Source: Thiovibrio frasassiensis
GTDB taxonomy: Bacteria; Desulfobacterota; Desulfobulbia; Desulfobulbales; Desulfurivibrionaceae
Assembly (NCBI RefSeq): GCF_029607905.1
Contig: NZ_JAPHEH010000001.1
Location: 835,530-899,529 of the forward strand
DNA: 64,000 bases
Direction: 5' to 3'
Made by a program: the position numbers and the translations under genes. Of this stretch, positions 5,065 through 56,942 are shown piece after piece; positions within the stretch are counted from its first letter, which is position 1, and every line of letters begins with the position of its first letter. The notes beneath the pieces were generated by a model, which did not search any database, was not told the DNA's origin, and saw only the letters and a list, made by a program, of their open reading frames with translations.

Positions 5065-5238
5065 CCCTTGTCCTTAAGCGTCCAGACCACCTGCCAGGCC
5101 GATCGCGCTTCCTGTTGACTGACCCGCCCCTTATTGCTACTCTCAATTTAAGTACTGTGTCTCGCTGCCCTTGTCACTGAAAAAAGCCCTGACAAACAGG
5201 CATCCCTCTTCAACGGAACATCCCCGGAAAAACCCGTC

Positions 5239-6426: not shown

Positions 6427-6451
6427 CCACACCCCCGGCCCTGCGCTCAGA

Positions 6452-7645: not shown

Positions 7646-7828
7646 GGGACCTCCTAAAATAGTGGTTGAGGTTTAATCTAATAAAGATTACTAGTACTGG
7701 AAACTTTCTGCAACGGCTTTTCCTGGGATGCCGCCCCTTTTCCCTGTTTGCACCAAGATGCGTGTGCTATATATAGTAAATATACTAAATTTCTCCTCTT
7801 CGGATTTTTTTTTAAGAAAGACCACGCC

Positions 7829-10800: not shown

Positions 10801-11155
10801 GCACGAACTCAAAGAGGCAGGGATCCGCCTAGCGCTCGATGACTTCGGCACGGGCTATTCGTCGCTGCATTTTCTCCGCAAATTGCCCCTCAATACCCTG
10901 AAGATTGACCGGGCCTTTATTATGGAATTACCCACGGATCCGAACAGCGCGGCCATTGCGACCATCATCATCTCCCTGGCGCAGGCGTTGCATCTGGAGG
11001 TTGTGGCGGAAGGGGTCGAAAATATTGCCCAGCTTGAGTTCCTCAGACGCCTTGACTGTACGGAGATCCAGGGCTATCTGTTCAGCCCGCCGGTTCCCGG
11101 CCCAGCGTTTGCTGAATTGCTAAACGCCAATCAACTGTTGCCCTTGCCGAAATAA
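7829..11155 (+). CDS. PAS-PAS-GAF-PAS-PAS-GGDEF-EAL c-di-GMP protein
   Basis: A cytosolic sensor of about 1,108 residues with no membrane segments. Approximate order: two PAS-like regions (10-255), GAF (275-425), two PAS domains (430-680), GGDEF (680-850) and EAL (855-1105). The EAL domain has VGMEALVRW and DDFGTGYSSL, consistent with an active c-di-GMP phosphodiesterase. The cyclase signature is GGDDF rather than GGEEF/GGDEF, and the RxxD inhibitory site is absent. The GGDEF half may therefore be weak or regulatory, making a net phosphodiesterase plausible. The ATG at 7829 was preferred over one at 7748, whose extension shows no domain. A globin-coupled cyclase follows 54 nt downstream. Confidence 0.85.
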   Translation: MTILSHLPGILSALSFPLAVLEADGRIASCNAAWTETLQRLHLSGGRAGDDFAALFRNADGQEAGEISPERIRTFLAGNENTFSCSLPVSGSNAALFRLTAAPENFPRLFCAEIHIPCSDPLLLAGEERLRCLLDAMPDIVCFKDGAGRWLEANQSDLELFRLQGVDYLGKTDGELAAFSPFYREAFLACQESDEKAWQAGTLVRSKEIIPLPDGAFTTLDLYKIPLFHPDGSRKGLVVLGRDITASTLAQENLQQIRRQQEIIEQLLRISFSKTSLASQLSTALELIVEIPWLPLTAKGGIFLVETTKPKTLTLFAQKNMAPSLLQHCGSINFGECLCGTAAEEQRFIFAPHLPAEEAFRYAGLEDQSHYIVPILRDNQLLGVLMLYAEAGYASGETEQKFLESVANALALLIERQQGANRLLISEANLAKAQQIAQLGYWDWHISGNLLSWSDEVYRIFGLLPTKTPAAYDNFLAHIHPDDRPKVQAAVQDALIGKTPYSINHRIIREDGALREVHEEGEVEYDTSGAPLRMFGIVQDITLLKRSEEQMDLAAKVFDSSIEGITITDATGTIQSVNRAFTHITGYNPEEAIGKNPSILKSDRHDAQFYSAMWSTLLAEGKWEGEIWNRRKNGEVYPEWLTITAITDEYGQITHNVAVFHDMSEIRSYEEQLHFHAYHDALTGLPNRLLILDRFTVAISHALRLHKQVAVLVLDLDNFKHINDSLGHKIGDTLLQQVAERLKVGLGDDHAVGRLGGDDFAILIEQCEDEQAAVRMAEKTIGLFAEPFNLAVYETFVTVTIGISFFPNDGSDADTLLKSAELAMYRAKEEGKNKYQLFTPAMNAKVVHRLSLENSLRKALERDEFLVYYQPKVATGTGRIVGMEALVRWQSSDGRLISPLDFIPLAEETGLIIPLGEQVLRKACRDTKQWLAKNKDLVVSVNLSPRQFMQENLLQTIMDILQESGLPPAQLELEVTEGAVMFNEQAALATLHELKEAGIRLALDDFGTGYSSLHFLRKLPLNTLKIDRAFIMELPTDPNSAAIATIIISLAQALHLEVVAEGVENIAQLEFLRRLDCTEIQGYLFSPPVPGPAFAELLNANQLLPLPK

Positions 11156-11209
11156 TCCTATATCCCCCTTAGGCCGGTTCCACGCACCGGTCGTCGCTGG
11201 AGATTCCCT

Positions 11210-12328
11210 GTGAAAGCCACTGACTTGAACCTGGGAGAGCAGTTGAAGATGTCGGAGCGGGAGATCCGCCGCCGGCTGGAGCTCTTGTCCATCGGCCCGA
11301 AGGAAAAAAAGGAGATGGTCGGGATGAAACCCCTGATCGCTCCCCATGTCGAGACCCTGGTGGATCGATTTTACACCCTGCAGGTTGAGGAACCCGAGAT
11401 TGCCAGATTGATCGGCGACTCCGAAACCTTGTCCCGCTTAAAAAAACATCTCTCCCGCTACATCCTGACCCTTTTCGACGGGGAATACGGCATGGAATAT
11501 GTGCTTTCCCGGCTGCGCATCGGCATGGTGCATAAACGCATCGGCGTGCCGCCCAAGCTGTATGTCCCCTCCCTCTGGAACCTTTTCTCGCTGTTGCGCC
11601 ACCAGATCCTCCTTGAAACCGACCAAAAATGCGGGGTCTGCAGCGACAGGCTGAATGCCCTGGAAAAAATCATGCTTTTTGATCTGGCGCTGGTTTTTGA
11701 CACCTATATCTTCAGCCTCATGGATGCCCTGGCCAGAGGCCGACAAGAGCTGGAGGAATACGCCGAGAGCCTAGAAGAAACCGTGGCCCGGCGCACCCAG
11801 GAACTGGCGTCTTTGGCCAGCAAGGATGGGTTGACCGGACTTTTAAACCAGCGCAGCTTCTATGAGGAACTGCGGAGGGAAACCGCGAGAATCCTGCGGA
11901 TCCAAGGAAAGATCGCCCTGCTCTATCTGGACCTGGACGGCTTCAAGAAGGTCAACGACACCCTGGGACACCAGCAGGGAGACGACATCCTCATCGCGGT
12001 CTCCGATGTGATCCGCACGGTGGTGCGTAGCGAGGACATCGCCGCCCGTTACGGCGGGGACGAATTCTGTATTCTTCTTCCCCACAGCGGCGTGGCCGAA
12101 GCCAGAGAGGTGGCGCAACGGCTGGCTCAGGCCTTTGCCCGTCAACCGCGGTTGACGGAAACAGGGGTCGCTTTCAGCATCGGGATTGCCGCCGAAAATT
12201 GGGACAATCTGCGCGACGGAGATCTGCTCGTTCAACAAGCGGATGCGGCCATGTACCTTTCCAAAAAAATACCGGGCCACGCTGTTACCGTGGCAGGGCA
12301 AGAAGCCGAGCCCTTGCCGGGCGACTGA
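11210..12328 (+). CDS. Globin-coupled diguanylate cyclase
   Basis: A 372-residue globin-coupled sensor cyclase of the DosC type. The N-terminal globin fold (about 20-175) has a candidate proximal His in RIGMVHKRIGVPP, so it should bind haem and sense O2 or another gas. A coiled linker with SLEETVARRTQEL joins it to a GGDEF domain with YGGDEFCILL, consistent with an active diguanylate cyclase, and RSED five residues before the signature, matching an inhibitory I-site. The gene starts with GTG behind GGAG. It sits directly after the PAS/GAF/EAL protein, so this pair could make and degrade c-di-GMP in response to different cues. Confidence 0.9.
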   Translation: MKATDLNLGEQLKMSEREIRRRLELLSIGPKEKKEMVGMKPLIAPHVETLVDRFYTLQVEEPEIARLIGDSETLSRLKKHLSRYILTLFDGEYGMEYVLSRLRIGMVHKRIGVPPKLYVPSLWNLFSLLRHQILLETDQKCGVCSDRLNALEKIMLFDLALVFDTYIFSLMDALARGRQELEEYAESLEETVARRTQELASLASKDGLTGLLNQRSFYEELRRETARILRIQGKIALLYLDLDGFKKVNDTLGHQQGDDILIAVSDVIRTVVRSEDIAARYGGDEFCILLPHSGVAEAREVAQRLAQAFARQPRLTETGVAFSIGIAAENWDNLRDGDLLVQQADAAMYLSKKIPGHAVTVAGQEAEPLPGD

Positions 12329-12467
12329 GCTGGCCGGAGGCTTTTTCCCACGCTGGACAATTTTCCGTTTCGCCCCCTCTCCTGTCTTCATTTTTCCTTT
12401 CGCCTGCGGTATAGTACGGCAACCGCTCCCTGCCGGGGAGCCTCCAAAAACAAGCACGAGGAACGCC

Positions 12468-14701
<2,234 letters not shown>

Positions 14702-14744
14702 CCATAAACTGATCGTGGCGGACCAGGCAAGCGAGGAGCGGGAG

Positions 14745-15026
14745 ATGACAAAAAAACGGGTGGTGACCAGGGTTGAAGGGGTGGTGCAGGGCGTCTATTT
14801 TCGTGATTATGCTCAGAAAGAGGCCCGGGAACTTGAGTTGAGCGGCTGGGTGCGGAACCGGCCGGACGGCACGGTGGAAGCGGTGCTGGAGGGTGAGACC
14901 GAAAAAGTCGAACAGATGATTGCCTGGCTGCACACCGGCTCGCCCCAAGCCGAGGTCAAAACGGTACAGGTGACAGAGGAGCAGCCCCTGGGCGACAAGA
15001 CCGCCTTTGCCATCCGTTATAATTGA
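14745..15026 (+). CDS. acyP: Acylphosphatase
   Basis: A 93-residue acylphosphatase, a small enzyme that hydrolyses acyl phosphates. The two catalytic residues are visible: Arg in VVQGVYFRDYAQ and Asn in GWVRNRPDGTVE. The C-terminus has TAFAIRYN. The ATG at 14745 was chosen over longer in-frame starts because GAGGAGCGGGAG precedes it and the protein then has the family length. It follows ligA and may share its transcript. Confidence 0.93.
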   Translation: MTKKRVVTRVEGVVQGVYFRDYAQKEARELELSGWVRNRPDGTVEAVLEGETEKVEQMIAWLHTGSPQAEVKTVQVTEEQPLGDKTAFAIRYN

Positions 15027-15113
15027 TATCCCGTAATTATTGATTTTGCCCGCTCGCTGCCGCGCTTACTGTCTTGCTTCCCCCTGCCGGTTTTCATTTT
15101 CACAAGCTCTTAA

Positions 15114-15142
15114 TTGACATTTTTCTCCATCTGCCGTAGAAT
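15114..15142 (+). promoter_or_regulatory. Sigma-70 promoter for zinc-ribbon gene
   Basis: A TTGACA at 15114-15119 and a TAGAAT at 15137-15142 with 17 bp between them, 51 nt ahead of the zinc-ribbon start. This is a near-consensus sigma-70 promoter. Confidence 0.8.
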
Positions 15143-15193
15143 CCGCCCTTTTATCATTATGAGAATCCCCCCATTTTTCTGGCGAGGAGGAGT

Positions 15194-15457
15194 ATGGAAA
15201 CCGAAATGGCAACCCCACGCAGGGTTCCACAAAAAGGCCAAGCGCGGATCCGTTGTCCGCACTGCGGCAACGATACCGATTTTTTTGAGATCGCAGACGG
15301 GGTTGTCCTGACCACCCGCTATCAACAGAATGACGACGGCAGCTTTACCCAGGAAGGCGACGAATCGCAGGTTTTAGGCGAGATTAAGTTCTTTTGCGGC
15401 GAATGCAACCAGGATCTTTCCGAGTACCACAACCACTTCCTGGAGATGCTTTTCTAA
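15194..15457 (+). CDS. Small zinc-ribbon protein
   Basis: An 87-residue protein with two CxxC pairs, CPHCGND (about residue 21) and CGECN (about residue 68), which is a zinc-ribbon spacing. The middle is acidic and Gln/Asp-rich. It starts at ATG behind GAGGAGGAG. A near-consensus promoter lies just upstream, so expression is likely strong. I recognise no specific function; small zinc-ribbon proteins of this kind are common in Desulfobacterota. Convergent with dsrC across a bidirectional terminator at 15516-15556. Confidence 0.8.
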   Translation: METEMATPRRVPQKGQARIRCPHCGNDTDFFEIADGVVLTTRYQQNDDGSFTQEGDESQVLGEIKFFCGECNQDLSEYHNHFLEMLF

Positions 15458-15515
15458 CGAGAGGATTCTGCGACTGTTTGCTTATTTGTGACAGAAGATT
15501 TAGAGATTTTTGACA

Positions 15516-15556
15516 AAAAAAAAGGAGAAGGCAAATGCCTTCTCCTTTTTTCATTC
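15516..15556. terminator. Bidirectional rho-independent terminator
   Basis: A perfect GGAGAAGGC/GCCTTCTCC stem with an AAAT loop, flanked by A- and T-runs on both sides, between the zinc-ribbon gene and dsrC. It can end transcription from both directions. Confidence 0.9.
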
Positions 15557-15585
15557 AATCCTGAACAAATCAACTGGCGTGGGGA

Positions 15586-15906
15586 TTACACACAACCGGT
15601 CGGTTTCGGCAGGCCGGCCATTTTACAGGCGCCCTTGCCGGGTCCAGAGGGGAACAGCTCGTAAATCCGCTTCAACGGGAAGCCGGTGGTCTTGGAAAGA
15701 ATACGGACCATGGGAGCGATACCATTCTTCTTGTAGTAATCACGAAGGGTATCAATAACCTTGTGATGTTCGTCGGTCATTTCACCAATGCCCTCAACAC
15801 CCTTAACATAGTCAACCCAGTTTTGATCCCAGGCATCCATGTTGCCGGTGAGGAAGCCGTCTTCATCGACGGTGAAGCTTGAACCATTATGCTCGATAGT
15901 AGGCAT
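15586..15906 (-). CDS. dsrC: DsrC/TusE-family sulfur carrier
   Basis: A 106-residue DsrC, the physiological partner of dissimilatory sulfite reductase. It takes the sulfur as a trisulfide between two conserved Cys in the flexible C-terminal arm. Both are present: GKGACKMAGLPKPTGCV, with the penultimate Cys and the one ten residues before it, so this is a functional DsrC and not a TusE-like single-Cys form. The start at 15906 has AAGGAG upstream. A near-consensus promoter sits behind it. No dsrAB, dsrMKJOP or sat/apr genes are in the window; in sulfate reducers dsrC is usually a separate, highly expressed gene, which fits. Confidence 0.96.
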   Translation of the reverse strand: MPTIEHNGSSFTVDEDGFLTGNMDAWDQNWVDYVKGVEGIGEMTDEHHKVIDTLRDYYKKNGIAPMVRILSKTTGFPLKRIYELFPSGPGKGACKMAGLPKPTGCV

Positions 15907-15981
15907 ATTTATTCTCCTTCAGTAAAATTTTAACAAAAAAATTATTGTGAATGTAACGTATTCGCTAATTCAGGATGCCAC

Positions 15982-16010
15982 TTATTACTATATGCTTTCC
16001 CCTTTGTCAA
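15982..16010 (-). promoter_or_regulatory. Strong promoter for dsrC
   Basis: On the minus strand TTGACA (16010-16005) and TAATAA (15987-15982) are 17 bp apart, 76 nt ahead of the dsrC start. The leader between them and the ATG is AT-rich. This fits the high expression expected of dsrC. Confidence 0.75.
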
Positions 16011-16097
16011 GCCGAGGGGTTTATTTTTTTCTCCGCCGCGCTTGCCCTACAAACGCACTGATTTAATACGCTCTTTTTCGAAAGAGCCACCCCCTTC

Positions 16098-16784
16098 TCA
16101 AGCGACCATGGCCTCAAAGCGGGAAAATATTTCCGGCCCGAACCCCTGCTCTTTTTCAAAGGCAACATCCAGGGTGGTACGCGGATTGAAATTTTGCAAC
16201 TTGAGGCGGGAACGGGAGCGGTCAAACTGCTTGGCCCAGGCAACGATGTCGTCTTCGCTGTGCAGGGCCGGAGCAATGGTCATGCGGAACTCATGGGGGA
16301 TACCACTGTGGCATAGGAGGTCGATACTGTGCTGAATCGCGCCCAGATCAACGGCGCTTCCGGCGCAGCGCTCGTATTTATCCTGCACCAGTACCGTCTT
16401 GACATCCATGGCCACCATGTCGAGCAGATTATCCCCCAGCAGCTGGGCGACCACCTCCGGCCGGGTGCCGTTGGTGTCGAGCTTGATCGCCCACCCTTCT
16501 GCCTTGAGCCGGGCAATCAACCGAGGAAGACCTGGAGAGAGGGTCGGCTCACCGCCGGAGATACAGACCCCTGCCAGCCAGTTTTTCCGGGCGGCCAGAC
16601 GGCTCATGATCTCCTCAAAGGCTATGGTTTCCATGCCTTCCGGGGCAAGAACCAACGGGTGATTGTGACAGAATGGACAGCGGAAGTTGCAGCCGCCCAC
16701 AAAGAGGATGGCGCACAGCTTACCGGGCCAGTCGATAAAGGAGGTCTCCAAAAACCCCTTTATCGGCGGCAGGCAAGCAATCAC
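16098..16784 (-). CDS. nrdG: Anaerobic ribonucleotide reductase activating protein
   Basis: A 228-residue radical SAM protein with the [4Fe-4S] motif CNFRCPFCHN (CxxxCxxC). It generates the glycyl radical on NrdD. CISGGEPTLSPGL is the SAM-binding GGE region. The protein is longer than the short NrdG of E. coli (about 154), as in the NrdG forms of many anaerobes. It is the third gene of a nrdD-glutaredoxin-nrdG operon (24 nt gap before it). Identification is firm from motif and context. Confidence 0.93.
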   Translation of the reverse strand: MIACLPPIKGFLETSFIDWPGKLCAILFVGGCNFRCPFCHNHPLVLAPEGMETIAFEEIMSRLAARKNWLAGVCISGGEPTLSPGLPRLIARLKAEGWAIKLDTNGTRPEVVAQLLGDNLLDMVAMDVKTVLVQDKYERCAGSAVDLGAIQHSIDLLCHSGIPHEFRMTIAPALHSEDDIVAWAKQFDRSRSRLKLQNFNPRTTLDVAFEKEQGFGPEIFSRFEAMVA

Positions 16785-16808
16785 AGGACACCTACTATCA
16801 CAACAAGA

Positions 16809-17123
16809 CTACTGCAGGGCGCAGCTGCCGGATTCACAGCCTGCCTGTTTGTTCTGGTGTTGGGCCGCAACGCCGAAACGGACGGCACGGTCCAGTAACT
16901 GGCTTTGGATATGGCCAAACTCATGCAGGGCTGAAGAATCGTCGAGCACCAGAATGGGCAGAGCCTTTCTGGCCCGTTCCACCAAGCCGTGCCAGGCAAG
17001 ATGGGCCAGGGCGCCGGCGTCGTTATTGCCCAACACCTCCACCCGCACATCCATGGCGGAAAGATCGAATTGTTTTTTCAGCTGGGCGCAGAGCATGCAG
17101 TCATCGGTGGTAAAAAGTGTCAT
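16809..17123 (-). CDS. Glutaredoxin-like thiol-redox protein of the nrd operon
   Basis: A 104-residue protein beginning MTLFTTDDCMLCAQLKKQF, with a CxxC redox pair in a glutaredoxin position (a CMLC active site). It ends in a second Cys pair, CESGSC. It lies between nrdD and nrdG (14 nt and 24 nt gaps), preceded by a GGGGG ribosome site. The family assignment rests on the short N-terminal motif, so it is moderate. The context suggests it supplies reducing equivalents to NrdD, as some class III reductases use thiol proteins rather than formate. That is an inference. Confidence 0.7.
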   Translation of the reverse strand: MTLFTTDDCMLCAQLKKQFDLSAMDVRVEVLGNNDAGALAHLAWHGLVERARKALPILVLDDSSALHEFGHIQSQLLDRAVRFGVAAQHQNKQAGCESGSCALQ

Positions 17124-17137
17124 AGGTTTTCCCCCTG

Positions 17138-19264
17138 TTAATTGTTGAAGCGATCGGTGTTCCGGTAGCGGTCGTGCAGTTCGCCAAGCTTGCCCTTGTT
17201 CCAGCTGGAGATCTTGGTGAAATAGCCGGTGATCCGGGTGATGCCGTCGACGTTCTTCGACTGGCAATAGGGACAGGCCTCGCTCAACCCCCTGCTCGTC
17301 TTGCCGCAATCCAGACAGGCGGTGAATTCCGGAGAAAAGGCGATCTGGTCGTTCTGGGTGTACTTGAAGACATTGATCACGAAGCTGGCCAGTGCCTCCT
17401 TGTCCGGCTGGGCTTCGCCCAACCAGAGATGGGTGATGGAACCCGCCTCGATGAGGGGATGGAACAGACCTTCCTTCTCCACCCTGGCGATGGGGCTCAT
17501 GACGGCACCGACGTTAAAGAGGGTGGAGTTGCTGTAATAGACCTCCCCTTTCTCCCGGTTGCCCTGGACAACCTTTGCCGCCTCGGCATTGAAATGGGCC
17601 AGATCCAGCTTGGCAAAGCGGAAGGAGGTGGACTCGGCCGGGGTCTGCTCAAGAACAAATTTCATGCCCAGGGATTCGGCCAGCTTGTTGCACACGATGT
17701 TCATATGGGCAATGACCTTGAGGCCGAACTTGATGGATGCATCCGAGTCGTGCAGCTCCTCGCCAAGATGCACCCGGATCAGCTCATTGAGGCCCACCAT
17801 GCCGATGAGATAGGAGCACTTGTGCAGCTTGAGGTAGGGCTCGCCGTCGAGATCCATGGCCAGCAAAGAAAGCGGCCCGCCCTTGCCCAGGCTCATCAGC
17901 CGTTCGATAAACTTCTTCTTCTGGCCATGGGCCTTGGCCGCAAGCTGGAGATTTTCGGTGAGCAGCCCAAAGAGCTTGGTGTCATCGCCCTGGGCCTTGA
18001 AGGCAAGACGCGGCAGGTTGATGGTGATGTTCTGCAGGGCCGAGTAGCGCATCTTCCAGGGCTGCTTGGCATCCTCCAGATCCGAGGCCTCCAGCTTGAA
18101 GCTTAAGCGACAGCATTCAGAGATCTTGGCGGTATCGCCCCGGTCAAAGACAAAATAGGTGTTGCCCTTCACCGAGGCCACTTCGCAGATATGGTGCAGG
18201 AAGTCCATGTGGCCGTCGGTCTTGAAGAACTTCTCGGTAATATGCACCAGAGGCTTGGGGAAGAAGAAGGGGCGGCCGGCGGCATCCCCCTCTTTATAAA
18301 CCTCGAACAGCGCCCAGGCAAAGCGTTGCGCCTGCTTTTCGTATTCGCCATAGGTCTTACCGGTGTACACCCCGCCCGGGCCGATGGCGGGCACGTCCAC
18401 GAAATGCTTGGGCACCTCCCAGTAGATGTTGACGTCGGAGAAGATCGCCTGCCCGCCCCGGGCCACGGCCTGCTGGGAGAATTCGTAGATCATCATCTGG
18501 GCCAGCTGCTTGACCCCGTTGTCATCCAGCTCTTCGAGATAGGGAGCGTAAAAGAGGTTGATCGCATCCCAGCCGATGGCCCCGGCAAAATGGCTCTGCA
18601 GGGAGGCGGCAAACTTGACCATATGGGCAAGAAGCACCTCGGCATGCTTGGCCGGCTTGGCCATGGACAGGGCATGGGGCAGATTGAGGCCAAATTTCTT
18701 GATATACTCCAGGGACTGACCGGAACAATACGGCCGGTCGATAAAGCCCAGGTCATGGAGATGCAGGTCGCCGCTCAAGTGGGCGTCGGCCACATCCGGG
18801 GTAAAGACGTGAAGCAGGGCGTACTCCTTCTTGATGCCCTCGGCCAGGGTGAGGTTGGTGGCCTCCGGCCCATGGGGCACATTGGCATTTTCCTTGTTGT
18901 GCTGAACCAGCAGCTGGTCCACATCGTAGAGCGGCACCCCGAGGCGGGTATGCATGCGCCGCGCCTCTTCCAGACCCATCTCCAGGAGTTTGGCGTTGAC
19001 CATTTCGCGGATCAGCGGACCGGTGATGGTTTTCACCTTGCCGGCCTGGATGGTCAGCTCGATGTCCTTACTGATCTTCTCGGCGGTGTCACGGTCGACA
19101 AAGGTCTCGCGCAACAGGGCATCGACGATGCGCTGCCGGTTCCAGCCAAGCATGTCATCCTGGGAGGAACGGACAAAAAGAGCGATATCGGTGCTGTCCT
19201 CGTTCACTACCTGATGTGTGCTGGCCTGGGCGGTCTCCGCTTTGAGTGGCATCACAACTCCCAT
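17138..19264 (-). CDS. nrdD: Anaerobic ribonucleoside-triphosphate reductase
   Basis: A 708-residue class III reductase. An ATP-cone (about 30-120; GWNRQRIVDALL) precedes the catalytic domain. A zinc site is visible as CLDCGKTSRG and CPYCQS, and the glycyl-radical region reads RITGYFTKISSWN near the C-terminus. It makes deoxyribonucleotides without oxygen, fitting an obligate anaerobe. The start at 19264 has GAGGAG seven nt upstream; an internal ATG at 19252 is weaker. Two NrdR-type boxes lie 65-112 nt upstream. Confidence 0.96.
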   Translation of the reverse strand: MGVVMPLKAETAQASTHQVVNEDSTDIALFVRSSQDDMLGWNRQRIVDALLRETFVDRDTAEKISKDIELTIQAGKVKTITGPLIREMVNAKLLEMGLEEARRMHTRLGVPLYDVDQLLVQHNKENANVPHGPEATNLTLAEGIKKEYALLHVFTPDVADAHLSGDLHLHDLGFIDRPYCSGQSLEYIKKFGLNLPHALSMAKPAKHAEVLLAHMVKFAASLQSHFAGAIGWDAINLFYAPYLEELDDNGVKQLAQMMIYEFSQQAVARGGQAIFSDVNIYWEVPKHFVDVPAIGPGGVYTGKTYGEYEKQAQRFAWALFEVYKEGDAAGRPFFFPKPLVHITEKFFKTDGHMDFLHHICEVASVKGNTYFVFDRGDTAKISECCRLSFKLEASDLEDAKQPWKMRYSALQNITINLPRLAFKAQGDDTKLFGLLTENLQLAAKAHGQKKKFIERLMSLGKGGPLSLLAMDLDGEPYLKLHKCSYLIGMVGLNELIRVHLGEELHDSDASIKFGLKVIAHMNIVCNKLAESLGMKFVLEQTPAESTSFRFAKLDLAHFNAEAAKVVQGNREKGEVYYSNSTLFNVGAVMSPIARVEKEGLFHPLIEAGSITHLWLGEAQPDKEALASFVINVFKYTQNDQIAFSPEFTACLDCGKTSRGLSEACPYCQSKNVDGITRITGYFTKISSWNKGKLGELHDRYRNTDRFNN

Positions 19265-48955: not shown

Positions 48956-49428
48956 GCTTGATCCTCGTCTCACAATCTGTTCATTCAGGGTTACACAAGA
49001 TCCGTCCAGCGGCACATTGTCGCCCGAAAGATGCCAGCAAAGTAAGCGAAGAGCGAAATAAATACAAGGGGCTGAATGACACTGGCCAAGAAATTCGCTC
49101 GAACCCTTCCAAAAACAATCTTTATTGTATCTCAAAAAAAGAAACCACCTGTAGTAGCCGCGACTTATGAAAAACACAACATATCGATATATTTAAGTTT
49201 TTTCACCAACCCATTTCCCCCCTCTCTCATTCAACTATTCAATTTTTATGAGAAAAATCCACGATCTACCACTTACTTTATTCTTGACACCATGTTTTTT
49301 TTGTGTCTCTAATGCAACAGGATAGATAAAAATATAAGTCAGCAAGAGCAGTTAGAAAGTATTCCGCGCGACAACCGATGTCGGCATGCGGATGTGCACA
49401 GCCAGAAAATCTTGGTCACGGGGAGCTC
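48956..49428. other. AT-rich intergenic region upstream of pilM
   Basis: 473 bases divergent between lepB and pilM. No gene, tRNA or repeat was recognised. It becomes increasingly AT-rich towards pilM and contains the candidate pilM promoter at 49284-49313. Confidence 0.5.
49284..49313 (+). promoter_or_regulatory. Promoter of the pilM operon
   Basis: TTGACA (49284-49289) and TCTAAT (49308-49313) with 18 bp between them; transcription would start near 49320, about 109 nt before the pilM ATG. Confidence 0.6.
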
Positions 49429-50526
49429 ATGGGCAAATCCGGTTTCAAAAAATTACAATTGCCATCCTTGAATATCCCATTTCTTAAAAGGCAAACGCTT
49501 TCCGTCGGCCTTGATATTGGCTCCCATGCCGTGAAAATCTGCGAACTGGCGGAAACAGGCACAGGCTATCAGTTGGTCGCCCTGGGCAGCGCTCTGCTCC
49601 CTCCCGACTCCCTTGAAGACGGAGCCTTGCAGGATCCGGAAGCCGTAGGCAAGGTAATCACCTCTCTGGTCAACAACCTGAAGATTAAAAATAAAAAAGT
49701 CGCTATCTCCATTTCGGGCTATTCCGTCATCGTCAAAAAAATAAATCTCGCCGTGATGACCGAAGAGGAGCTTGAAAAACACATCGAATCAGAGGCGGAA
49801 CAATATATCCCGTTCGATATTGAAGACGTCTACCTGGATTTCCAGGATTTAAAAACGAACACCGCTTCCGAGCCCCGCACGGATGTAATGTTGGTTGCCG
49901 CCAAACGGGATGTTGTGGACGGATATCTCAACATGCTCCGTGCGGCAGGACTGCAACCGGTTGTCGTTGACGTGGATGCCTTTGCTCTGGAAAATGCCTT
50001 TGAGGCAAATTTTGGCGTGGCGGACAATGTCGCCCTGGTGGATATCGGCGCCTCCAAAATGAACATCAATATTATCTCCCATGGCGCTTCCATTTTGGCT
50101 CGGGACGTTGTCCTTGGCAGCCGCCAGCTGACCGAACAGATTGAAAATCTTTTTGGGGTCAGCTTTGAAGAGGCGGAGGGGCTGAAAACAGGGGAAATTG
50201 CCTCGAAAGAAAAGCAAGAGGAGCTTGAAACCCTTTTTGCCAATACCTGCAGTCAATGGGTGACAGAGGTGAAACGGGCCATAGACTTTTATTATTCCAA
50301 TCATCCGGACGAAACGATTGCAAAAATCGTTCTGAGCGGTGGCGGAGCAAAAATACAGGGACTTCCCGAATTCTTTAAAAAAGAGACGGATATACCGGTC
50401 GAAATTTTCAACCCCTTCAAACAAGCAACCGTGGACAGCAGAACCATTGACCCCTCCTATTTGAAAAGCATTGCTCCGGAAATGACTCTTGCGGCCGGTC
50501 TGGCGACAAGACCGGTGGAGGTATAG
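49429..50526 (+). CDS. pilM: Type IV pilus assembly protein PilM
   Basis: A 365-residue actin-like ATPase on the cytoplasmic side of the type IV pilus alignment complex. Nucleotide-fold motifs: LSVGLDIGSHAVKICEL, LVDIGASKMNINII and KIVLSGGGAKIQG. It recruits PilN. The start at 49429 has GGGGAG upstream; an earlier frame lacks similarity. It opens the pilMNOP group and pilN follows within 4 nt. Confidence 0.93.
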   Translation: MGKSGFKKLQLPSLNIPFLKRQTLSVGLDIGSHAVKICELAETGTGYQLVALGSALLPPDSLEDGALQDPEAVGKVITSLVNNLKIKNKKVAISISGYSVIVKKINLAVMTEEELEKHIESEAEQYIPFDIEDVYLDFQDLKTNTASEPRTDVMLVAAKRDVVDGYLNMLRAAGLQPVVVDVDAFALENAFEANFGVADNVALVDIGASKMNINIISHGASILARDVVLGSRQLTEQIENLFGVSFEEAEGLKTGEIASKEKQEELETLFANTCSQWVTEVKRAIDFYYSNHPDETIAKIVLSGGGAKIQGLPEFFKKETDIPVEIFNPFKQATVDSRTIDPSYLKSIAPEMTLAAGLATRPVEV

Positions 50527-50530
50527 CCGC

Positions 50531-51082
50531 ATGATCCGCATAAATCTCCTGCCGATCAGGCAGCTCAAGAAAAGACAACGACTGAAGACGGAGCTGCTTG
50601 GGTTTTGCGCTGCCCTTGCTCTGGTCTTGTTCTTCCTTGCCGGCGGCTGGTTCGCCTTGGCCGGGAAGATAAACACCCTGCAGGATGAGATTGTTACGCT
50701 TGAGCAAAAAAAACAGGCCTTCGCGCCCATCCTGAAAGAAATCGAGACCCTGAAAAAAGAAAAGCAGCTTGTAGAGCAGAAGCTGGACTCCATCAAAACA
50801 CTTCAGGCTGGCGCCAAGGTTACCGTCCGCGTCCTCGATGAGGTGGCCTCTCGCACCCCGACAAGCCGGATGTGGCTCAGCTCCCTGCAACAGTCGACCG
50901 GGCGCTTGCAGCTGCAAGGCATCGCCCTGGACAATGAAACCATTGCCCAGTACATGCAACAGTTGGAAGCTTCCGAATATTTTGAAAAAACAGAATTGAC
51001 CAGCTCTGCCCAGACGGATGTTGCCAAGCAGAAGCTGAAATCATTTTCTCTCACGATTAATGTCATCACACCGAGCAGTTAA
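50531..51082 (+). CDS. pilN: Type IV pilus assembly protein PilN
   Basis: A 183-residue inner-membrane protein. It has the PilN N-terminus MIRINLLPIRQLKKRQR, which binds PilM, one membrane span (about 24-45), a coiled coil and a ferredoxin-like periplasmic domain. It starts 4 nt after the pilM stop. Confidence 0.92.
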   Translation: MIRINLLPIRQLKKRQRLKTELLGFCAALALVLFFLAGGWFALAGKINTLQDEIVTLEQKKQAFAPILKEIETLKKEKQLVEQKLDSIKTLQAGAKVTVRVLDEVASRTPTSRMWLSSLQQSTGRLQLQGIALDNETIAQYMQQLEASEYFEKTELTSSAQTDVAKQKLKSFSLTINVITPSS

Positions 51083-51102: not shown

Positions 51103-51753
51103 ATGGCGCTTGACATGAAACAAATACAGGCAGGCTTTGAGAGCTTTCTTGACAGCAAGGTAAGCCGGCTTGACATGAAACAAAAGATGCTGATCGCGGG
51201 CGCAACTTGCGTTTTGCCGTGCATAGCTTTCTTTTTTCTTGCATATTCACCGAAAAGCACTGAAATAACCACCCTTGAAGCAAAGAAGTCCGGGATCGAA
51301 TCGGAAATCCAACGCGTAGAAAAAATTGCAAGTGACCTGAACAAACACAAGGCGGAAATGGCAGAAGTGCAGCGGCAGTTTGCAGAGGCATCACTCCTAT
51401 TACCCGACCAAAAAGAAATCCCTTCCCTCCTGACAACCATTTCCGGCCAGGCCACCTCCTCTGGGTTGGATGTTCTTTCGTTTAAGCCGCTACCCGAAAA
51501 GCCGCAACAATTTTACGCTGAAATCCCTGTAGATATAGCAGTACAGGGGCCATATCATAATGTAGGGGTTTTTCTTGATAGAATCAGCAAGCTTCCCCGG
51601 GTTGTCGCCGTGAACAACATTCAAATGGATTCCCCCAAACAAATGGGTGCAGAAATGTCCCTAAAGTCAACATTTCAACTTGTCACCTACCGTTTTCTGG
51701 ATCCCGCTGAAATTGAAGCCAACACGGGAAAAAATACTCCAGGGAAAAAATAA
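51103..51753 (+). CDS. pilO: Type IV pilus assembly protein PilO
   Basis: A 216-residue inner-membrane protein with an N-terminal cytoplasmic part, a membrane span (about 25-50), a coiled coil and a PilO periplasmic domain (VQGPYHNVGVFLDRISKL). It pairs with PilN. Two near-identical copies of DMKQ occur near its N-terminus. Position between pilN and pilP supports the call. Confidence 0.9.
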   Translation: MALDMKQIQAGFESFLDSKVSRLDMKQKMLIAGATCVLPCIAFFFLAYSPKSTEITTLEAKKSGIESEIQRVEKIASDLNKHKAEMAEVQRQFAEASLLLPDQKEIPSLLTTISGQATSSGLDVLSFKPLPEKPQQFYAEIPVDIAVQGPYHNVGVFLDRISKLPRVVAVNNIQMDSPKQMGAEMSLKSTFQLVTYRFLDPAEIEANTGKNTPGKK

Positions 51754-51819: not shown

Positions 51820-52338
51820 ATGACAAATAGCGTCCCTTCAAAAAATATTTTCCTCGCATTAACCTATGCAGTTTGTTTGTGCTTCATAGGCGCAGGGAAT
51901 ATTGCCTCTGCCCAAACCGAGCCTGCCACGCCAAGCTCCACCTCCGAAAATTCGGCTCAATCTTTGGAAACAGCGCTTGCAACCGGGCAACCGCCACCTT
52001 TTGTCTATAACCGCGAAAGACCTGATCCCTTTTTCCCGTTTCTCAGCAAGGAAATAATGAAGGCCCAAGCCGAACTTACGGGAACACAAAAATTTGAACC
52101 AGGCCAGTTGACGTTGGTTGCCATCGTTTCAGGAAAACGCGGTTTAATAGCCATGGTCCAGGATTCATCCGGCGTTGGCTATGTCCTCCGCAAGGGGACA
52201 AAAATTGGAGAAACGGGAAAGGTTGTACAAATAGCCCAAGACAAAGTTATCATCGAGCAATCTCTAAAAAATGTAACCGGTGATGACAGCATAACCCGAA
52301 AAATTGAAATGACCTTAAGCAAAGAGGGAGATAAATAA
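51820..52338 (+). CDS. pilP: Type IV pilus assembly protein PilP
   Basis: A 172-residue periplasmic protein linking PilNO to the secretin. A signal peptide (about 1-30) is visible. RPDPFFPF and the basic C-terminal domain with GYVLRKGTKIGETGKV match PilP. No clear lipobox Cys is present, unlike most PilP lipoproteins. Its last base is the first base of the next gene. Confidence 0.87.
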   Translation: MTNSVPSKNIFLALTYAVCLCFIGAGNIASAQTEPATPSSTSENSAQSLETALATGQPPPFVYNRERPDPFFPFLSKEIMKAQAELTGTQKFEPGQLTLVAIVSGKRGLIAMVQDSSGVGYVLRKGTKIGETGKVVQIAQDKVIIEQSLKNVTGDDSITRKIEMTLSKEGDK

Positions 52339-54431
52339 TGACACCCCTTACCCGCCTGAAATGTATCCCTGCCGGGCTGATAATATTCTGTTTCCTTTTA
52401 TCCGGGATCGCTTTTGCTCAAAAAGCAGCTCCCCAAGCAAAAACAGCATATACAATTTCAAGTATCTCTCTTGAGCAGACTGCCGATGGCATGCAGCTCA
52501 TTGTGCAAGGGCACACTCCGCCCACCTATACAATGTACGAACTCTTCGATCCCCTTCGGATTGTGCTGGACATTGCTGATGCCAAAATCGTTGACTCCGC
52601 GTCTATTCCGGCAAATCTGCCACTGGGGCCGGTACAGAGCATTAAAAGCATCGCCTTGACCGATCAGGACCCCGCCATCGCCCGTTTGGAGATTTACCTT
52701 GCCGATGACCCTGCCTATACCATTGAAAGAAAGGGAAACAATATTGTTGTCAGTTTTGCAAAGACAATGCCCCTTCCAGCACAACTCACGCAGGCGGTAG
52801 CCGAAACTGAGGCAAAGCAACCCCCTGCAACCACTGCTATTCCGTCGCCTCATCCTGCATCATTGCTCCAGGACATTGAGATTGACACCACCAACCCCGC
52901 CGAGACCCTCGTTTTTATTAAAACAGACGGCCCGGTCAAAGATTACAAAAAAGCCCATCTCGTTAAAGGCGGTGGTCGCCCGGCCAGAATGTATATCGAC
53001 ATTGCCAATGTCGCCCTGCCAGGCAAGATGTTGCAGCACACGGTTGGAACGGCTTTGGCAAAAATTCGTGCGGCCCAGCACAAATCTGCGGTACGCATTG
53101 TTTTTGATTCCGGACTTAACGAGCTCTTCCCCTATGAGGTGGAAAACAGACCCGATGGCTTACTGATCAAAATAGCTGAGTCGTCAACCATTGCCGCTCC
53201 AGTCGTTGCCAACCTTCCCCCTCGAGAAGAACCGAAAACTCCCGCGCCCCCTGTTGCCACGGTTAACAAAGAAATGCAGGAACAGCCAATGGTCGCAACA
53301 GCGCCCAAAAATCCAGCGCCGCCGGTGGCTGCTCCTGCCGTACACACAGAAATTCAGGAAACCGCTCTGGTCACAACAGCTCCTCCGGCAGAGCTTATTA
53401 TCCCGAAGATTGCCAGCCTTAAACCAAAGGCAAAAACCACTCCCAAAAAGGCCGTTGTCCCGGCTCCTCCTGCTAAAAAATCTCCTGAAAAGACCCAGGC
53501 AGACAGCCTTGGTTTTGCAGGATATGAAACCCAAAAAATCACCGTCGATTTCTTTAAAATTGATCTCCACAACGTCTTCAGACTATTTGGGGAAATTAGC
53601 GGGAAGAATATTGTTGTGGATGAAGGAGTCAATGGCACCCTGACCCTGGCACTTACCGATATTCCCTGGGATTTTGCCCTGGACATTATTCTCAACCTCA
53701 AGGATTTGCAGAAAGAGGAGCGGTTCAACACCATCGTCATTTCGCCAAAATCCAAACAATTCAACTGGCCCAAAGGCGCAACGGATGCACTGGCCGTCAA
53801 AGGGGGCGTAACGGTTGAATCCATTTCCGTAAAACAACGCATTGAGACGCCCACAGGCGTTGTTGAAGCAAAAAACCTGATTCAGCTGGCAACTGCGGCG
53901 GAAAAAAGCAACCAATATGAAAAAGCCTTATCTCTGTACGAAGCAGCATTTAAGAACTGGCCAGAAAATGCAATGCTTACAAGCCGTATTGCCTCTCTCT
54001 GTCTTACCCGGCTTGGGATGAATGCCAAGGCCGTACACTATGCCAAAGCAACCCTGACCCTTGAGCCGCGCAACGCAGAGGCAGCACTGCAGGCCGCCAT
54101 TGGTTCGGCGAACATGAAAAATACTGAGGCTGCCAAAGCATACTTTGATCTGGCCATCAGCGGGGATGCGCCTGCGAGCGAGGCACTGATCAGCTATGCT
54201 TCCTTTGCCGAAGAATATCAGAGCTATAATGGCGCCTTGGCACTGCTTACCAGACATGAAACCCTGTTCGGGGATACCCTCGACACCCTGGTGGCCAAAG
54301 CCCGCATCCTTGACAAACTTGGCCTGTCCGCCCAGGCAGTCGAGGCATACAATACCGTTCTGCTTTCCGGATACACGATCCCGGAAGATTTGCAGCAATT
54401 CATCAGAGGCAGAATTGCTGCTGCAAATTAA
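52338..54431 (+). CDS. PilQ-like AMIN/STN protein with TPR C-terminus
   Basis: A 697-residue exported protein (signal peptide 1-28). It carries two AMIN domains (about 40-145 and 175-275), a Pro/Ala-rich linker (280-390), an STN/N0-type secretin N-domain (395-480; FFKIDLHNVFRLFGEISGKN), and a TPR region to the end. It lacks the secretin beta-barrel that PilQ would have. The next gene encodes a separate secretin. It looks like the N-terminal half of PilQ joined to TPRs. It starts at the base that ends pilP. Confidence 0.85.
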   Translation: MTPLTRLKCIPAGLIIFCFLLSGIAFAQKAAPQAKTAYTISSISLEQTADGMQLIVQGHTPPTYTMYELFDPLRIVLDIADAKIVDSASIPANLPLGPVQSIKSIALTDQDPAIARLEIYLADDPAYTIERKGNNIVVSFAKTMPLPAQLTQAVAETEAKQPPATTAIPSPHPASLLQDIEIDTTNPAETLVFIKTDGPVKDYKKAHLVKGGGRPARMYIDIANVALPGKMLQHTVGTALAKIRAAQHKSAVRIVFDSGLNELFPYEVENRPDGLLIKIAESSTIAAPVVANLPPREEPKTPAPPVATVNKEMQEQPMVATAPKNPAPPVAAPAVHTEIQETALVTTAPPAELIIPKIASLKPKAKTTPKKAVVPAPPAKKSPEKTQADSLGFAGYETQKITVDFFKIDLHNVFRLFGEISGKNIVVDEGVNGTLTLALTDIPWDFALDIILNLKDLQKEERFNTIVISPKSKQFNWPKGATDALAVKGGVTVESISVKQRIETPTGVVEAKNLIQLATAAEKSNQYEKALSLYEAAFKNWPENAMLTSRIASLCLTRLGMNAKAVHYAKATLTLEPRNAEAALQAAIGSANMKNTEAAKAYFDLAISGDAPASEALISYASFAEEYQSYNGALALLTRHETLFGDTLDTLVAKARILDKLGLSAQAVEAYNTVLLSGYTIPEDLQQFIRGRIAAAN

Positions 54432-54612
54432 TATACAGGTTGAGGCGTTTTCGGTTTTTACCTGAGATTTGCTGGGCTCGTAAAAAAGGGAACGATGACA
54501 CAGGTCCGTAACATAATTTAAAAAGTTACAAAGAGACCACTGTTGTAAGCGCGGCTTTTTTGCGATTTCAACAAATTTTCTTTCACCTCAAAAAAGTATA
54601 AAGACTGCCATC

Positions 54613-56262
54613 ATGAAAAAGAAAACTCAAAGCGTTGTTACCCTCTTAGTCTGGACAGCAATCTGTCTGCTACTCATTACTGCCTGCGCACCTGCTGCCA
54701 AAACCGAGGCAACGCAAGATCCTCTTGCGGCAAAACAGACTAAGACTTTGGAAGCCGGCCAGTTGCCGGTCCGCTACCAAAACCCGGCGTATATGCTGGG
54801 AGAGAGTTCTGCCAAAAATATTGGGGCGGGGAAATCAGAAGGACTTACAATCCCGGTTGGCGCAGATATTTCTTCCAATACTGGGCCCGTGGCGCTGCGC
54901 GACATCATGAAGAAACTGGCCGTCTTAAAGGAGATGAATATCAGCTGGGCAAGCGATGTGGACCAGATGGCCATGGTGGATGTGGATATCCGCGCAGAGG
55001 ATGATTTTTTCAAATCCCTGGAAAATATTCTCAGACAAAAGGATTATTTCCACGAGGTGCAGGGCAATACCATCGTGGTCAAATACCGCGAAACCAGGAA
55101 GTTCCATGTGGCCATGCCCTTTTTGAAATCCACCTATAACACCGGAGTCGGCGGAGATGTGCTGGGAGGCGGCGCAGAAAAAAGTGGCCTTAAGGGGAAT
55201 ATCCAGCTTACCAGCGAAAAGAACGATTTTGATGTTTGGGGGAATATCAGTACCAATCTCGATCAAATACTTGGCATTTGGGAGGAAACCGTCACTACCC
55301 CAGCCCCTGCTACAACTACCACGGCAACAGGAGCTGCAGCTGTTGTTGCAGCAGCCCAGCCTCCGCCCGCCAGCAGTACGACGACCAAACGCAATGTCCA
55401 GGCAGGAAAGGGGTATTACAGTATTGACAAGCCAATCGGCTTGATCACCGTTACCGCCCCGAGGCCTCTCGTAGAGAAGATTGCCGTCTATCTTGAAAAC
55501 TTTAAAACAGAACTCTATCGGCAAATCTCCATCGAGGCAAAAATCGTGGAGGTTTCTATTGATGACACAGAAAGCCGTGGCATCGACTGGACCAATTTTC
55601 TGACCGATAAATCCATCGATTTTCAACTTTTTGGCTCCAATGGCGTTATCTATGAAGCCGGCACAAACAATGGCGGTAACCGGGTCGTGAGCAAGGTTTC
55701 TGTTACCAACCCCTTTTCCCTTGCTCTGAACTTTCTCGACACCCAAGGGCATACCACCGTCCTGGCGAATCCAAAACTCAGCGTCATGAACGGCCAACCA
55801 GGCCTCATCACTGCTGGGGACAGTGTCAAATATATCGACAAGGTGGAATCCAGGGTTGATGGCACTACCGGTTCTGTGACTTATACCGTCACGACGGCAA
55901 CCCTCATGTCCGGCATCGGCATGTCGGTGATCGGCACCATCATGGACAACGATGAGATCATTCTCACCCTGACCCCGGTCACCTCAAAGCTTGAGAACAA
56001 TGAAGTTACCTATATCAACGGCTGGGGAGGTGTTATCGGTGTTCCCAGGATTAAGTTGCGGGAGATGAACACCACCGTCCGAATCAAGAGCGGGCAAGTG
56101 GTAGTAGTGGGCGGTCTTATTGACAATGCGGAAGGGACCCTCGGCAGCAGCAAGGTCCCTTTCCTCGGCGATCTCCCCCTCATCGGCAATCTCTTCTCCC
56201 ACTCTGCCAAGTCCACCAAGAAAAGCGAACTGGTTATCATGCTGCAGCCCACAATTCTTTAA
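54613..56262 (+). CDS. MshL/PilN-type secretin lipoprotein
   Basis: A 549-residue secretin. An N-terminal lipoprotein signal has the lipobox LITAC. After N-domains (about 75-190) and a Thr/Ala-rich linker, the secretin domain shows IEAKIVEVSIDDTESRGIDW and ends VPFLGDLPLIGNLFS, TKKSELVIMLQPTIL. This is the MshL/BfpB class, not PilQ. It lies 181 nt after the PilQ-like gene and forms the outer-membrane channel for this pilus system. Terminator follows. Confidence 0.9.
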   Translation: MKKKTQSVVTLLVWTAICLLLITACAPAAKTEATQDPLAAKQTKTLEAGQLPVRYQNPAYMLGESSAKNIGAGKSEGLTIPVGADISSNTGPVALRDIMKKLAVLKEMNISWASDVDQMAMVDVDIRAEDDFFKSLENILRQKDYFHEVQGNTIVVKYRETRKFHVAMPFLKSTYNTGVGGDVLGGGAEKSGLKGNIQLTSEKNDFDVWGNISTNLDQILGIWEETVTTPAPATTTTATGAAAVVAAAQPPPASSTTTKRNVQAGKGYYSIDKPIGLITVTAPRPLVEKIAVYLENFKTELYRQISIEAKIVEVSIDDTESRGIDWTNFLTDKSIDFQLFGSNGVIYEAGTNNGGNRVVSKVSVTNPFSLALNFLDTQGHTTVLANPKLSVMNGQPGLITAGDSVKYIDKVESRVDGTTGSVTYTVTTATLMSGIGMSVIGTIMDNDEIILTLTPVTSKLENNEVTYINGWGGVIGVPRIKLREMNTTVRIKSGQVVVVGGLIDNAEGTLGSSKVPFLGDLPLIGNLFSHSAKSTKKSELVIMLQPTIL

Positions 56263-56283: not shown

Positions 56284-56316
56284 AAAAAAAGCCCGGCAAC
56301 CGCCGGGCTTTTTTTA
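56284..56316 (+). terminator. Terminator after the pilus operon
   Basis: GCCCGGC-AACC-GCCGGGC followed by a run of seven T, with an A-run before it, so it may also serve the converging secB gene. Confidence 0.88.
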
Positions 56317-56340: not shown

Positions 56341-56823
56341 CTATTGCGCTTGCTCCTGTCCCGCCTTCTGCTTCTTTGAATTCTCATACAGGGCATGAAA
56401 ATTAATCGGCTCCATGAGGAAGGGGATAAACCCACCATCCACGGAAACCTGACTGATTATCTGCCGGGTAAAGGGGAAAAGCAGGGCCGCACATTCCACC
56501 GACAATACCGGCTGCAGATGCTCCTCCGGAATGTTTTTCAGCAAGAACACCCCGGCATGCTCGACTTCGATGATAAACAGCGTTTTCTCGGTCTGGCTGT
56601 TGGTCACCTTGGCGGTAATGGCCAGGGTAACCTCATAATGGTCTTCCGTCTCCAGCTTCCGGTGCTTCAAGCCCAGGTTCACATCCACCTTGGGTTCGCC
56701 TTTGGCAAGAAAGATATCCGGAGCCTCGGGATTTTCAAACGACAGATCCTTAAGGTACATCTTCTGCAAACGGAAAATAGGTGGTTGCGGCGCCTGAGCG
56801 TCCTCATTCTTTTCTTCTGCCAT
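56341..56823 (-). CDS. secB: Protein-export chaperone SecB
   Basis: A 160-residue SecB that keeps precursors unfolded and delivers them to SecA. Family blocks FRLQKMYLKDLSFENPEAP, EVTLAITAKV and FIIEVEHAGVF are present. Start at 56823. It is convergent with the pilus operon across the terminator. Confidence 0.94.
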   Translation of the reverse strand: MAEEKNEDAQAPQPPIFRLQKMYLKDLSFENPEAPDIFLAKGEPKVDVNLGLKHRKLETEDHYEVTLAITAKVTNSQTEKTLFIIEVEHAGVFLLKNIPEEHLQPVLSVECAALLFPFTRQIISQVSVDGGFIPFLMEPINFHALYENSKKQKAGQEQAQ

Positions 56824-56942
56824 GATTCGCTTTTTCCTTGTCTGAGTTTCTGTATGGCAACCGCCACGATTACGCTGCTTCAAATACCACACTCCATTCT
56901 TTATAATGAAATATGGTGAAAATTCAACGGGTCTTTTGAAAT

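Follow-up and report, generated by a model that had tools for sequence, protein, structure and literature searches.

The Locus and Its Two-Gene Module

The window analysed here is a stretch of 64,000 nucleotides of the Thiovibrio frasassiensis genome (contig NZ_JAPHEH010000001.1, positions 835,530 to 899,529; coordinates below count from its first letter), and it contains a pilMNOP locus of a type IVa pilus (T4aP). Two genes follow pilP in the place of a single pilQ. The first encodes a 697-amino-acid protein, called below the N0–TPR protein, in which the N-half of PilQ is fused to a superhelix of tetratricopeptide repeats (TPR). The second encodes a separate lipoprotein secretin of the MshL class, the class of the mannose-sensitive haemagglutinin (MSHA) pilus. 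This pair is probably the outer-membrane module of the T4aP, the parts of PilQ and of its pilotin being re-partitioned over two proteins. The genes and domains are as follows.

49378–50526, + strand: pilM (TIGR01175, 286.6 bits, cut-off 133)
50531–51082, + strand: pilN (PF05137, 74.8 bits)
51103–51753, + strand: pilO (PF04350, 137.9 bits)
51820–52338, + strand: pilP, inner-membrane docking lipoprotein, GspC-like (PF11356, 23.4 bits; PF04351, 19.5 bits; both below cut-off)
52338–54431, + strand: AMIN-AMIN-N0-TPR protein, 697 amino acids, PilQ N-half fused to a TPR superhelix (family profiles, AlphaFold, conservation)
52449–52760, + strand: AMIN1 of the 697-amino-acid protein
52863–53177, + strand: AMIN2 of the same protein
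53190–53525, + strand: disordered linker of the same protein
53535–53747, + strand: N0 of the same protein
53853–54425, + strand: TPR of the same protein
54432–54612, + strand: intergenic gap of 181 bases between the N0–TPR gene and the secretin gene
54613–56262, + strand: MshL-class lipoprotein secretin, 549 amino acids (family profiles, predicted structure, secretin tree)
54685–54687, + strand: lipobox Cys25 codon of the secretin, by eye
about 54850–55107, + strand: N0-like domain of the secretin
about 55111–55512, + strand: N1 of the secretin
about 55513–56259, + strand: secretin domain

The pilN scan began at an upstream TTG (50489), and the profiles used the ATG at 50531. The domain score of pilP is weak but its place is conserved, a custom profile detecting pilP in order in the relatives. 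The N0–TPR gene starts on the last base of pilP. The gap before the secretin gene corresponds in relatives to mostly 0–271 bases, with a few overlapping gene pairs.

Architecture of the N0–TPR Protein

An initial annotation of the sequence had placed the AMIN and STN domains on one TPR-ending protein devoid of a barrel, followed by a distinct MshL-class lipoprotein secretin, and both statements are upheld, the former in its coordinates and domains by profiles and AlphaFold, the latter by the lipobox at Cys25 and a TIGR02519 score of 238.7 bits, just below the cut-off of 250.2. The 697-amino-acid protein is a single intact open reading frame (ORF) with two AMIN stretches (Pfam PF11741, 42.6 bits over the whole protein) and an STN/N0 domain at residues 424–471 (PF07660, 30.9 bits), which matches positions 2–77 of the PilQ model TIGR02515 with 61 bits; the TPRs start at residue 512. 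Profile scans gave no secretin domain in this protein, the barrel lying on the next gene. In the AlphaFold model, AMIN folds at 38–141 and 176–280 precede a disordered linker (285–396), the N0 domain (400–470) and a TPR superhelix of about six repeats (506–696), the latter with a predicted local distance difference test score (pLDDT) mostly above 95. Compared with known structures by Foldseek, the whole model comes closest to PilQ of the T4aP machine model 3jc8, and the TPR part aligns with the pilotins PilW (2vq2) and PilF (2fi7) with a Z score of 17.7 each. On the pilotin family model TIGR02521, the TPR of the window reaches 26 bits for a cut-off of 154 and thus misses the family threshold. 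The N-terminus has no lipobox by eye, and a script finds one in 8 of 106 relatives.

The N0 domain is of the PilQ type, since a model built from the split protein scores 44–76 bits on the N0 of one-gene PilQs and 17–21 bits on that of secretins from MSHA-like clusters. It is the most conserved domain of the N0–TPR protein, as is the N0 of MshL in its own chain. This conservation was considered as proof of a new interface and dropped: in ordinary PilQ too, N0 is better conserved than the secretin domain, so that the pattern only says that the N0 interface is kept. A plasmid scan with the N0–TPR protein returned short PilQ N0 matches only.

Class and Origin of the Separate Secretin

The 549-amino-acid secretin scores 126 bits on the Pfam Secretin model, 112 bits on PilQ TIGR02515 (cut-off 284) and 108 bits on GspD, the latter two well below its 238.7 bits on MshL. 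It has a conserved N0-like domain of its own at residues of about 80–165 (AlphaFold block pLDDT about 77–86), so N0 is doubled, one per protein, rather than moved. The whole AlphaFold model is weaker (pLDDT 63.7) and matches BfpB, PilQ and the secretins of type III and type II secretion. A lipobox is found by script in 80 of 101 MshL sequences, most of the remaining cases being explained by start choice or by an N in the motif.

In a secretin-domain tree of 78 rows, to be read with caution for its several long branches, all 23 split secretins fall in a 28-row clade supported at 98 by the Shimodaira–Hasegawa-like approximate likelihood ratio test (SH-aLRT). The MshL proteins of the Legionella and Aeromonas MSHA pili share this clade, as do three further rows. 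The PilQ clade (SH-aLRT 100) includes the secretins of the MSHA-like clusters of the window genome and of G019. The pore of the split locus is thus of the MSHA class, and from these placements the two secretin classes seem to have crossed over between two pilus loci. The window secretin itself stands outside an MSHA cluster with its mshI–mshQ genes, between the genes on the pilMNOP side and secB. T4aP secretins have been reported to be monophyletic, with little transfer between systems (PMC6668835).

Conservation of the Pair

The N0–TPR protein is present in 56 of 58 relatives; the two misses are a pilM fragment alone at a contig edge (G018) and a genome with no pilM match (G022). A secretin domain follows 0.7–1.7 kb downstream in at least 42 of these 56. 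When 20 loci were fetched for gene order, 17 held the N0–TPR gene, 16 of them in the order pilM-N-O-P-(N0–TPR)-secretin and one at a contig edge. Scanning 84,980 genomes, one for each species, gave 182 relatives, and in the best 80 of the 182, N0 and TPR lie within one ORF in every case, with an MshL-type secretin next in 77; the remaining three stop at contig ends. The AMIN content of these 80 is biased because they were chosen by likeness to the window protein. Most carriers bear Desulfobulbales-type names, many having broad names only; named examples are Desulfoprunum benzoelyticum DSM 28570, Desulfogranum marinum DSM 2058 and Desulfobulbus sp. Tol-SR. Two contigs of metagenome-assembled genomes labelled Chlorobiaceae and Prolixibacteraceae (L150, L167) carry a Desulfobulbales-type pil locus and are probably misplaced.

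Across 297 genomes of the phylum, matches spanning N0 to TPR were found, among the matches listed, in 11 genomes of the same order and 14 outside it; the other matches listed are mostly AMIN and/or N0 in long PilQ-like frames. An MshL-type secretin comes next in 13 of the 14 outside-order loci, the last one ending at a contig edge, and no AMIN was detected at E 1e-3 in 12 of them. Since these loci keep N0, TPR and the secretin, mostly without AMIN, the constant core of the split form is N0 plus TPR followed by an MshL-class secretin, with AMIN optional. The one-gene form, PilQ with N0 and secretin in one ORF after pilMNOP, was found in 28 of the 29 loci fetched as such, one of the 28 having an additional gene between pilP and pilQ; in L224, PilQ is in pieces. 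At the level of the phylum, either one PilQ gene or this pair accompanies pilMNOP. Left out of the profile models were L069, L070, L082 and L083, together with L071, whose secretin contains an interrupting run of N. In one locus (L233, genome G334, 7062–10403), the pilQ frame has 1113 amino acids, its called start overlaps pilP and N0 and the secretin domain lie far back; it has either a long N-terminal part or a wrong start.

The pairing in 77 of 80 relatives, together with the lack of an AMIN-bearing PilQ in the genome, sustains the claim of the initial annotation that two genes replace a single pilQ after pilMNOP; the consistent pairing in other genomes, which that annotation had named as a check, is thereby found. 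The two ways in which it could have failed have fallen away. A frameshift of a normal pilQ is ruled out by the intact and conserved ORF, and an AMIN-bearing pilQ elsewhere by the AMIN search of the genome, in which the only other AMIN protein is a 630-amino-acid open frame elsewhere, presumably an amidase. The separation of peptidoglycan binding from pore formation, which it had also read from the pair, is not supported as the conserved core because AMIN was undetected in most outside-order loci, and the two-part outer-membrane complex that it suggested is a putative one. Three features come in addition to that annotation: a pore of MSHA-class origin, a second N0 on the secretin itself and no separate pilotin detected.

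Exchange in Family f63

Family f63 has both states in the same operon, with pilQ and a Tgl-like TPR lipoprotein in three genomes and N0–TPR with MshL in two. In a 54-row tree of PilM, PilN and PilO, split loci stand in two places. A 37-row tree of the same proteins takes in 7 of the 15 in-order rows, 13 of the 25 earlier one-gene rows, the window and 3 new one-gene rows of f63; it places the split and one-gene loci of f63 together (SH-aLRT 99), and a single clade of all split loci is rejected by the approximately unbiased test (p-AU 7.6e-58). L224, with its PilQ in pieces, and L197, at a contig end and with no pilM, were left out of these trees. In the trees of the module genes, f63 groups with G318, with supports of 99 for N0–TPR and 96 for MshL. 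Since PilM, PilN and PilO are shared within f63 while both module genes group with G318, the module has replaced, or been replaced by, the one-gene form within one operon, its two genes moving as a unit.

The surroundings of these loci can also be compared. In L256, pilQ and the TPR lipoprotein gene are followed by an opposite-strand gene which looks by eye like a HAD-type hydrolase, and a similar-looking gene comes after the N0–TPR and MshL pair in L198 and L205. An extra gene for an exported protein of 396–444 amino acids lies between pilP and the secretin genes in f63, at 10618–11808 of L198 (split) and 8698–10032 of L258 (one-gene).

The Search for a Separate Pilotin

The three one-gene loci of f63 all have a TPR lipoprotein directly after pilQ, which scores best on two family models, Tgl (118–143 bits, cut-off 225) and PilW (105–127, cut-off 154), none over threshold. 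In the window genome, TIGR02521 gave 28 TPR matches, none over cut-off; as this model alone left the pilotin question unsettled there, the Tgl model was searched at E 1e-18 in a panel of 42 genomes, 22 one-gene and 20 split. A gene was counted as Tgl-like when the alignment of its TPR ORF began no later than model position 15 and the ORF bore a lipobox (16 by script, 2 by eye). A Tgl-model match was found in 19 of the 22 one-gene genomes and a Tgl-like lipoprotein in 18, and no Tgl-like gene was found by this search in the 20 split genomes. Their sole match is an 823-amino-acid ORF of the window genome, aligned from position 27. A laxer search (E 1e-10), covering the 20 split genomes together with the four hitless one-gene genomes, gave many partial matches. 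Thirteen split-genome ORFs were read from it; 11 are shorter than 300 amino acids, 10 of these having no export signal by eye, and one of 274 amino acids in G186 has a signal-like start and no lipobox. Of the remaining two, which are longer, one is the 335-amino-acid TPR lipoprotein of G237. The TPR profile scores weakly on the Tgl-like lipoproteins themselves (7–37 bits; 16 bits in L230). An origin of the TPR from MshN was set aside, on weak evidence: in the MSHA loci of Legionella and Aeromonas, a lax TPR-profile scan (E 0.1) gave no TPR protein.

Other Secretins and Pilus Genes of the Genome

The window genome (2.84 Mb, 95.5% complete) has two secretins. The second one, at C1:2084545, has 479 amino acids and is over the PilQ cut-off with 290 bits; no AMIN was found in it. 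It belongs to an MSHA-like cluster with an AAA ATPase, which we take to be of the MshM kind, a GspF/PilC-type protein, several pseudopilins and a GspE/PilB-type ATPase carrying an MshE-related cyclic diguanylate motif. With its PilQ-class secretin lacking AMIN (9363–10802), this cluster (L003, C1:2075000–2094000, at 5154–18736) is the mirror image of the window locus. Also encoded in the genome are PilB, with 757 bits, and two ATPases of the PilT family, all three scoring above their cut-offs. In G037, a 99% complete genome with two PilT-sized ATPases, the split MshL is the sole secretin match. Since PilB and PilT are present beside no AMIN-bearing PilQ, and since the lone secretin of G037 is the split MshL, the pair is very likely the T4aP gate. 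G022 (family f1, L069), of 1.7 Mb, has no pilM match, yet two PilT-sized ATPases and one secretin, which lies near MshE- and MshM-like genes and inside the MshL-side clade.

A Probable Re-Partitioned Outer-Membrane Gate

Comparison of sequences supports the architecture of the pair, its conserved pairing, the orthologous locus, the MSHA-class pore, the exchange in f63 and the apparent lack of a separate Tgl-like pilotin in the panel. From these we infer docking of PilP to N0, binding of the secretin by the TPR, peptidoglycan binding, lipid targeting and a single complex. The N0–TPR protein would keep the N-half of PilQ, with the AMIN domains, optional across lineages, binding the cell wall and the PilQ-type N0 docking on PilP. 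In place of the barrel, the TPR superhelix, of the size and fold of PilF, PilW and Tgl, would bind the secretin and aid its assembly. The MSHA-class pore, with its own lipid anchor, N0 and N1, would reach the outer membrane by way of its lipid. The likely order would be binding of the N0–TPR protein to the wall and PilP, delivery of MshL to the outer membrane, and holding of MshL monomers by the TPR for ring formation, the two N0 rings being stacked. A more specific proposal, to which we give somewhat less than an even chance, is a hetero-oligomeric gate in which an N0–TPR ring on PilP and the wall stacks under the liposecretin ring and builds it, with an exchangeable pore and repeated swaps in place, f63 included.

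Several observations weigh against the re-partitioned module and the repeated swaps. TPR folds are generic: MamA aligns with a Z of 19.9, above PilW and PilF, many unrelated TPR proteins align too, and the split TPR obtains just 26–36 bits on the PilW model. The trees cited are all quick ones, and in the 54-row test, which lacks the f63 one-gene rows, a single split clade is not rejected (p-AU 0.325). The contrast in the pilotin panel (18/22 versus 0/20, Fisher p 2e-8) ignores kinship, 4 of the 22 one-gene genomes likewise have no Tgl-like gene, and another TPR lipoprotein, 335 amino acids long, occurs in the split genome G237. Finally, a lipid anchor is no innovation of the split form, since 12 of 28 one-gene PilQs are lipoproteins by script.

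Other roles for the pair must be weighed against these features. The TPR could be a scaffold for another partner, polar or pilus-modulating, the N0–TPR protein then being a docking and wall-anchoring adaptor only. The Tgl gene would have become dispensable after the pore swap because a lipidated MshL needs no pilotin, which agrees with the lipobox counts for MshL and with the unspecific likeness of the TPR to pilotins. However, the TPR is the only domain besides N0 found in every split locus examined, the loss of Tgl coincides exactly with the gain of the TPR, f63 included, and several one-gene lipoprotein PilQs still adjoin a Tgl-like gene (L256–L258); we regard this scaffold role as unlikely.

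Considerably less probable is that the pair belongs to a separate system, MSHA-like or for secretion, the T4aP using the PilQ-class secretin at C1:2084545. The family scores, with that secretin over the PilQ cut-off and the window secretin of the MshL class, fit such an assignment, but wherever the contig is long enough, the pair is found inside the pilMNOP operon; the PilQ-class secretin stands in a cluster of its own, with an ATPase, a platform protein and pseudopilins, and has no AMIN; and G037 has two PilT-sized ATPases with no other secretin match. It seems highly improbable that the AMIN-N0-TPR protein is a decaying and roleless remnant of pilQ: all split loci retain it, its N0 is better conserved than the secretin domain, and in f63 it changed together with MshL, even if MshL, which has both an N0 and an N1, could suffice as a complete gate by itself.

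Relation to Known Systems

The re-partitioned module is best compared with PilQ and its pilotin (Tgl, PilF or PilW) in Myxococcus xanthus, Pseudomonas and Neisseria, with which it shares the pilMNOP slot, AMIN, a PilQ-type N0, a pilotin-sized TPR and a secretin pore. Polar recruitment of PilQ in M. xanthus is brought about by its AMIN domains, and its multimerisation is promoted by the TPR pilotin Tgl (PMC10653833). Here, in contrast, N-half and barrel are separate proteins, the TPR is attached to the N-half and does not form a lipoprotein by itself, and the barrel belongs to another secretin class with its own N0. Its secretin domain groups with the MshL of Legionella and Aeromonas, in which the N0 block of the split secretins was not found with a custom profile. 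MSHA systems have a TPR protein, MshN, homologous to TadD (PMC6668835), whereas here the locus is pilMNOP and the TPR partner is a PilQ N-half. In the Tad system, TadD, a TPR protein with a PilF-like fold, is needed for assembly of the pilus secretin RcpA (PMC10499894), but TadD is a lipoprotein and has neither AMIN nor N0. A precedent for an N0 carried by a protein distinct from the outer-membrane pore is DotD of Legionella, with DotC and DotH (PMC2951367); DotD is a small lipoprotein of type IVB secretion, without TPR or AMIN. A separate wall-linked partner also helps and anchors the secretin in type II secretion (GspAB, ExeAB, OutB; PMC9239104, PMC6532946), but these are inner-membrane proteins and their secretin stays whole. 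The split pair is thus not PilQ: its secretin is of the MshL class in a locus that is not an MSHA one, and its pilotin-like TPR does not stand as a separate lipoprotein. No description of this architecture was recognised in the titles, abstract openings and passages of the literature searched.

In the sulfur-cycling Desulfobulbales and some relatives, a docking protein and a lipid-anchored pore thus appear to replace the single gate protein of T4aP; cable bacteria are members of the Desulfobulbaceae (PMC6976610). A T4aP locus with an MSHA-class pore breaks up the usual one-chain logic of wall anchor, docking ring and gate. Nature thereby provides a test of which PilQ parts need to be joined, and a way to separate polar recruitment, docking and pore assembly. 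If the hetero-oligomeric gate is true, a single chain unites the wall anchor, the inner-membrane docking function and the pilotin, the pore is the part exchangeable between pilus families, and the swap in place between pilQ plus tgl and N0–TPR plus mshL happened more than once, f63 included. For annotation, PilQ searches in Desulfobulbales will return half a PilQ and an “MSHA” secretin.

Downstream Surroundings

An Rfam scan of the window gave no match. Two features follow the secretin gene.

56290–56316, no strand assigned: G+C-rich hairpin with A and T runs on its flanks, between the secretin gene and secB, by eye
56341–56892, − strand: secB, convergent to the secretin gene, from the reading of the window

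The hairpin reads as a putative two-way terminator. In most relatives with enough contig, secB adjoins the secretin gene or sits a few kb off.

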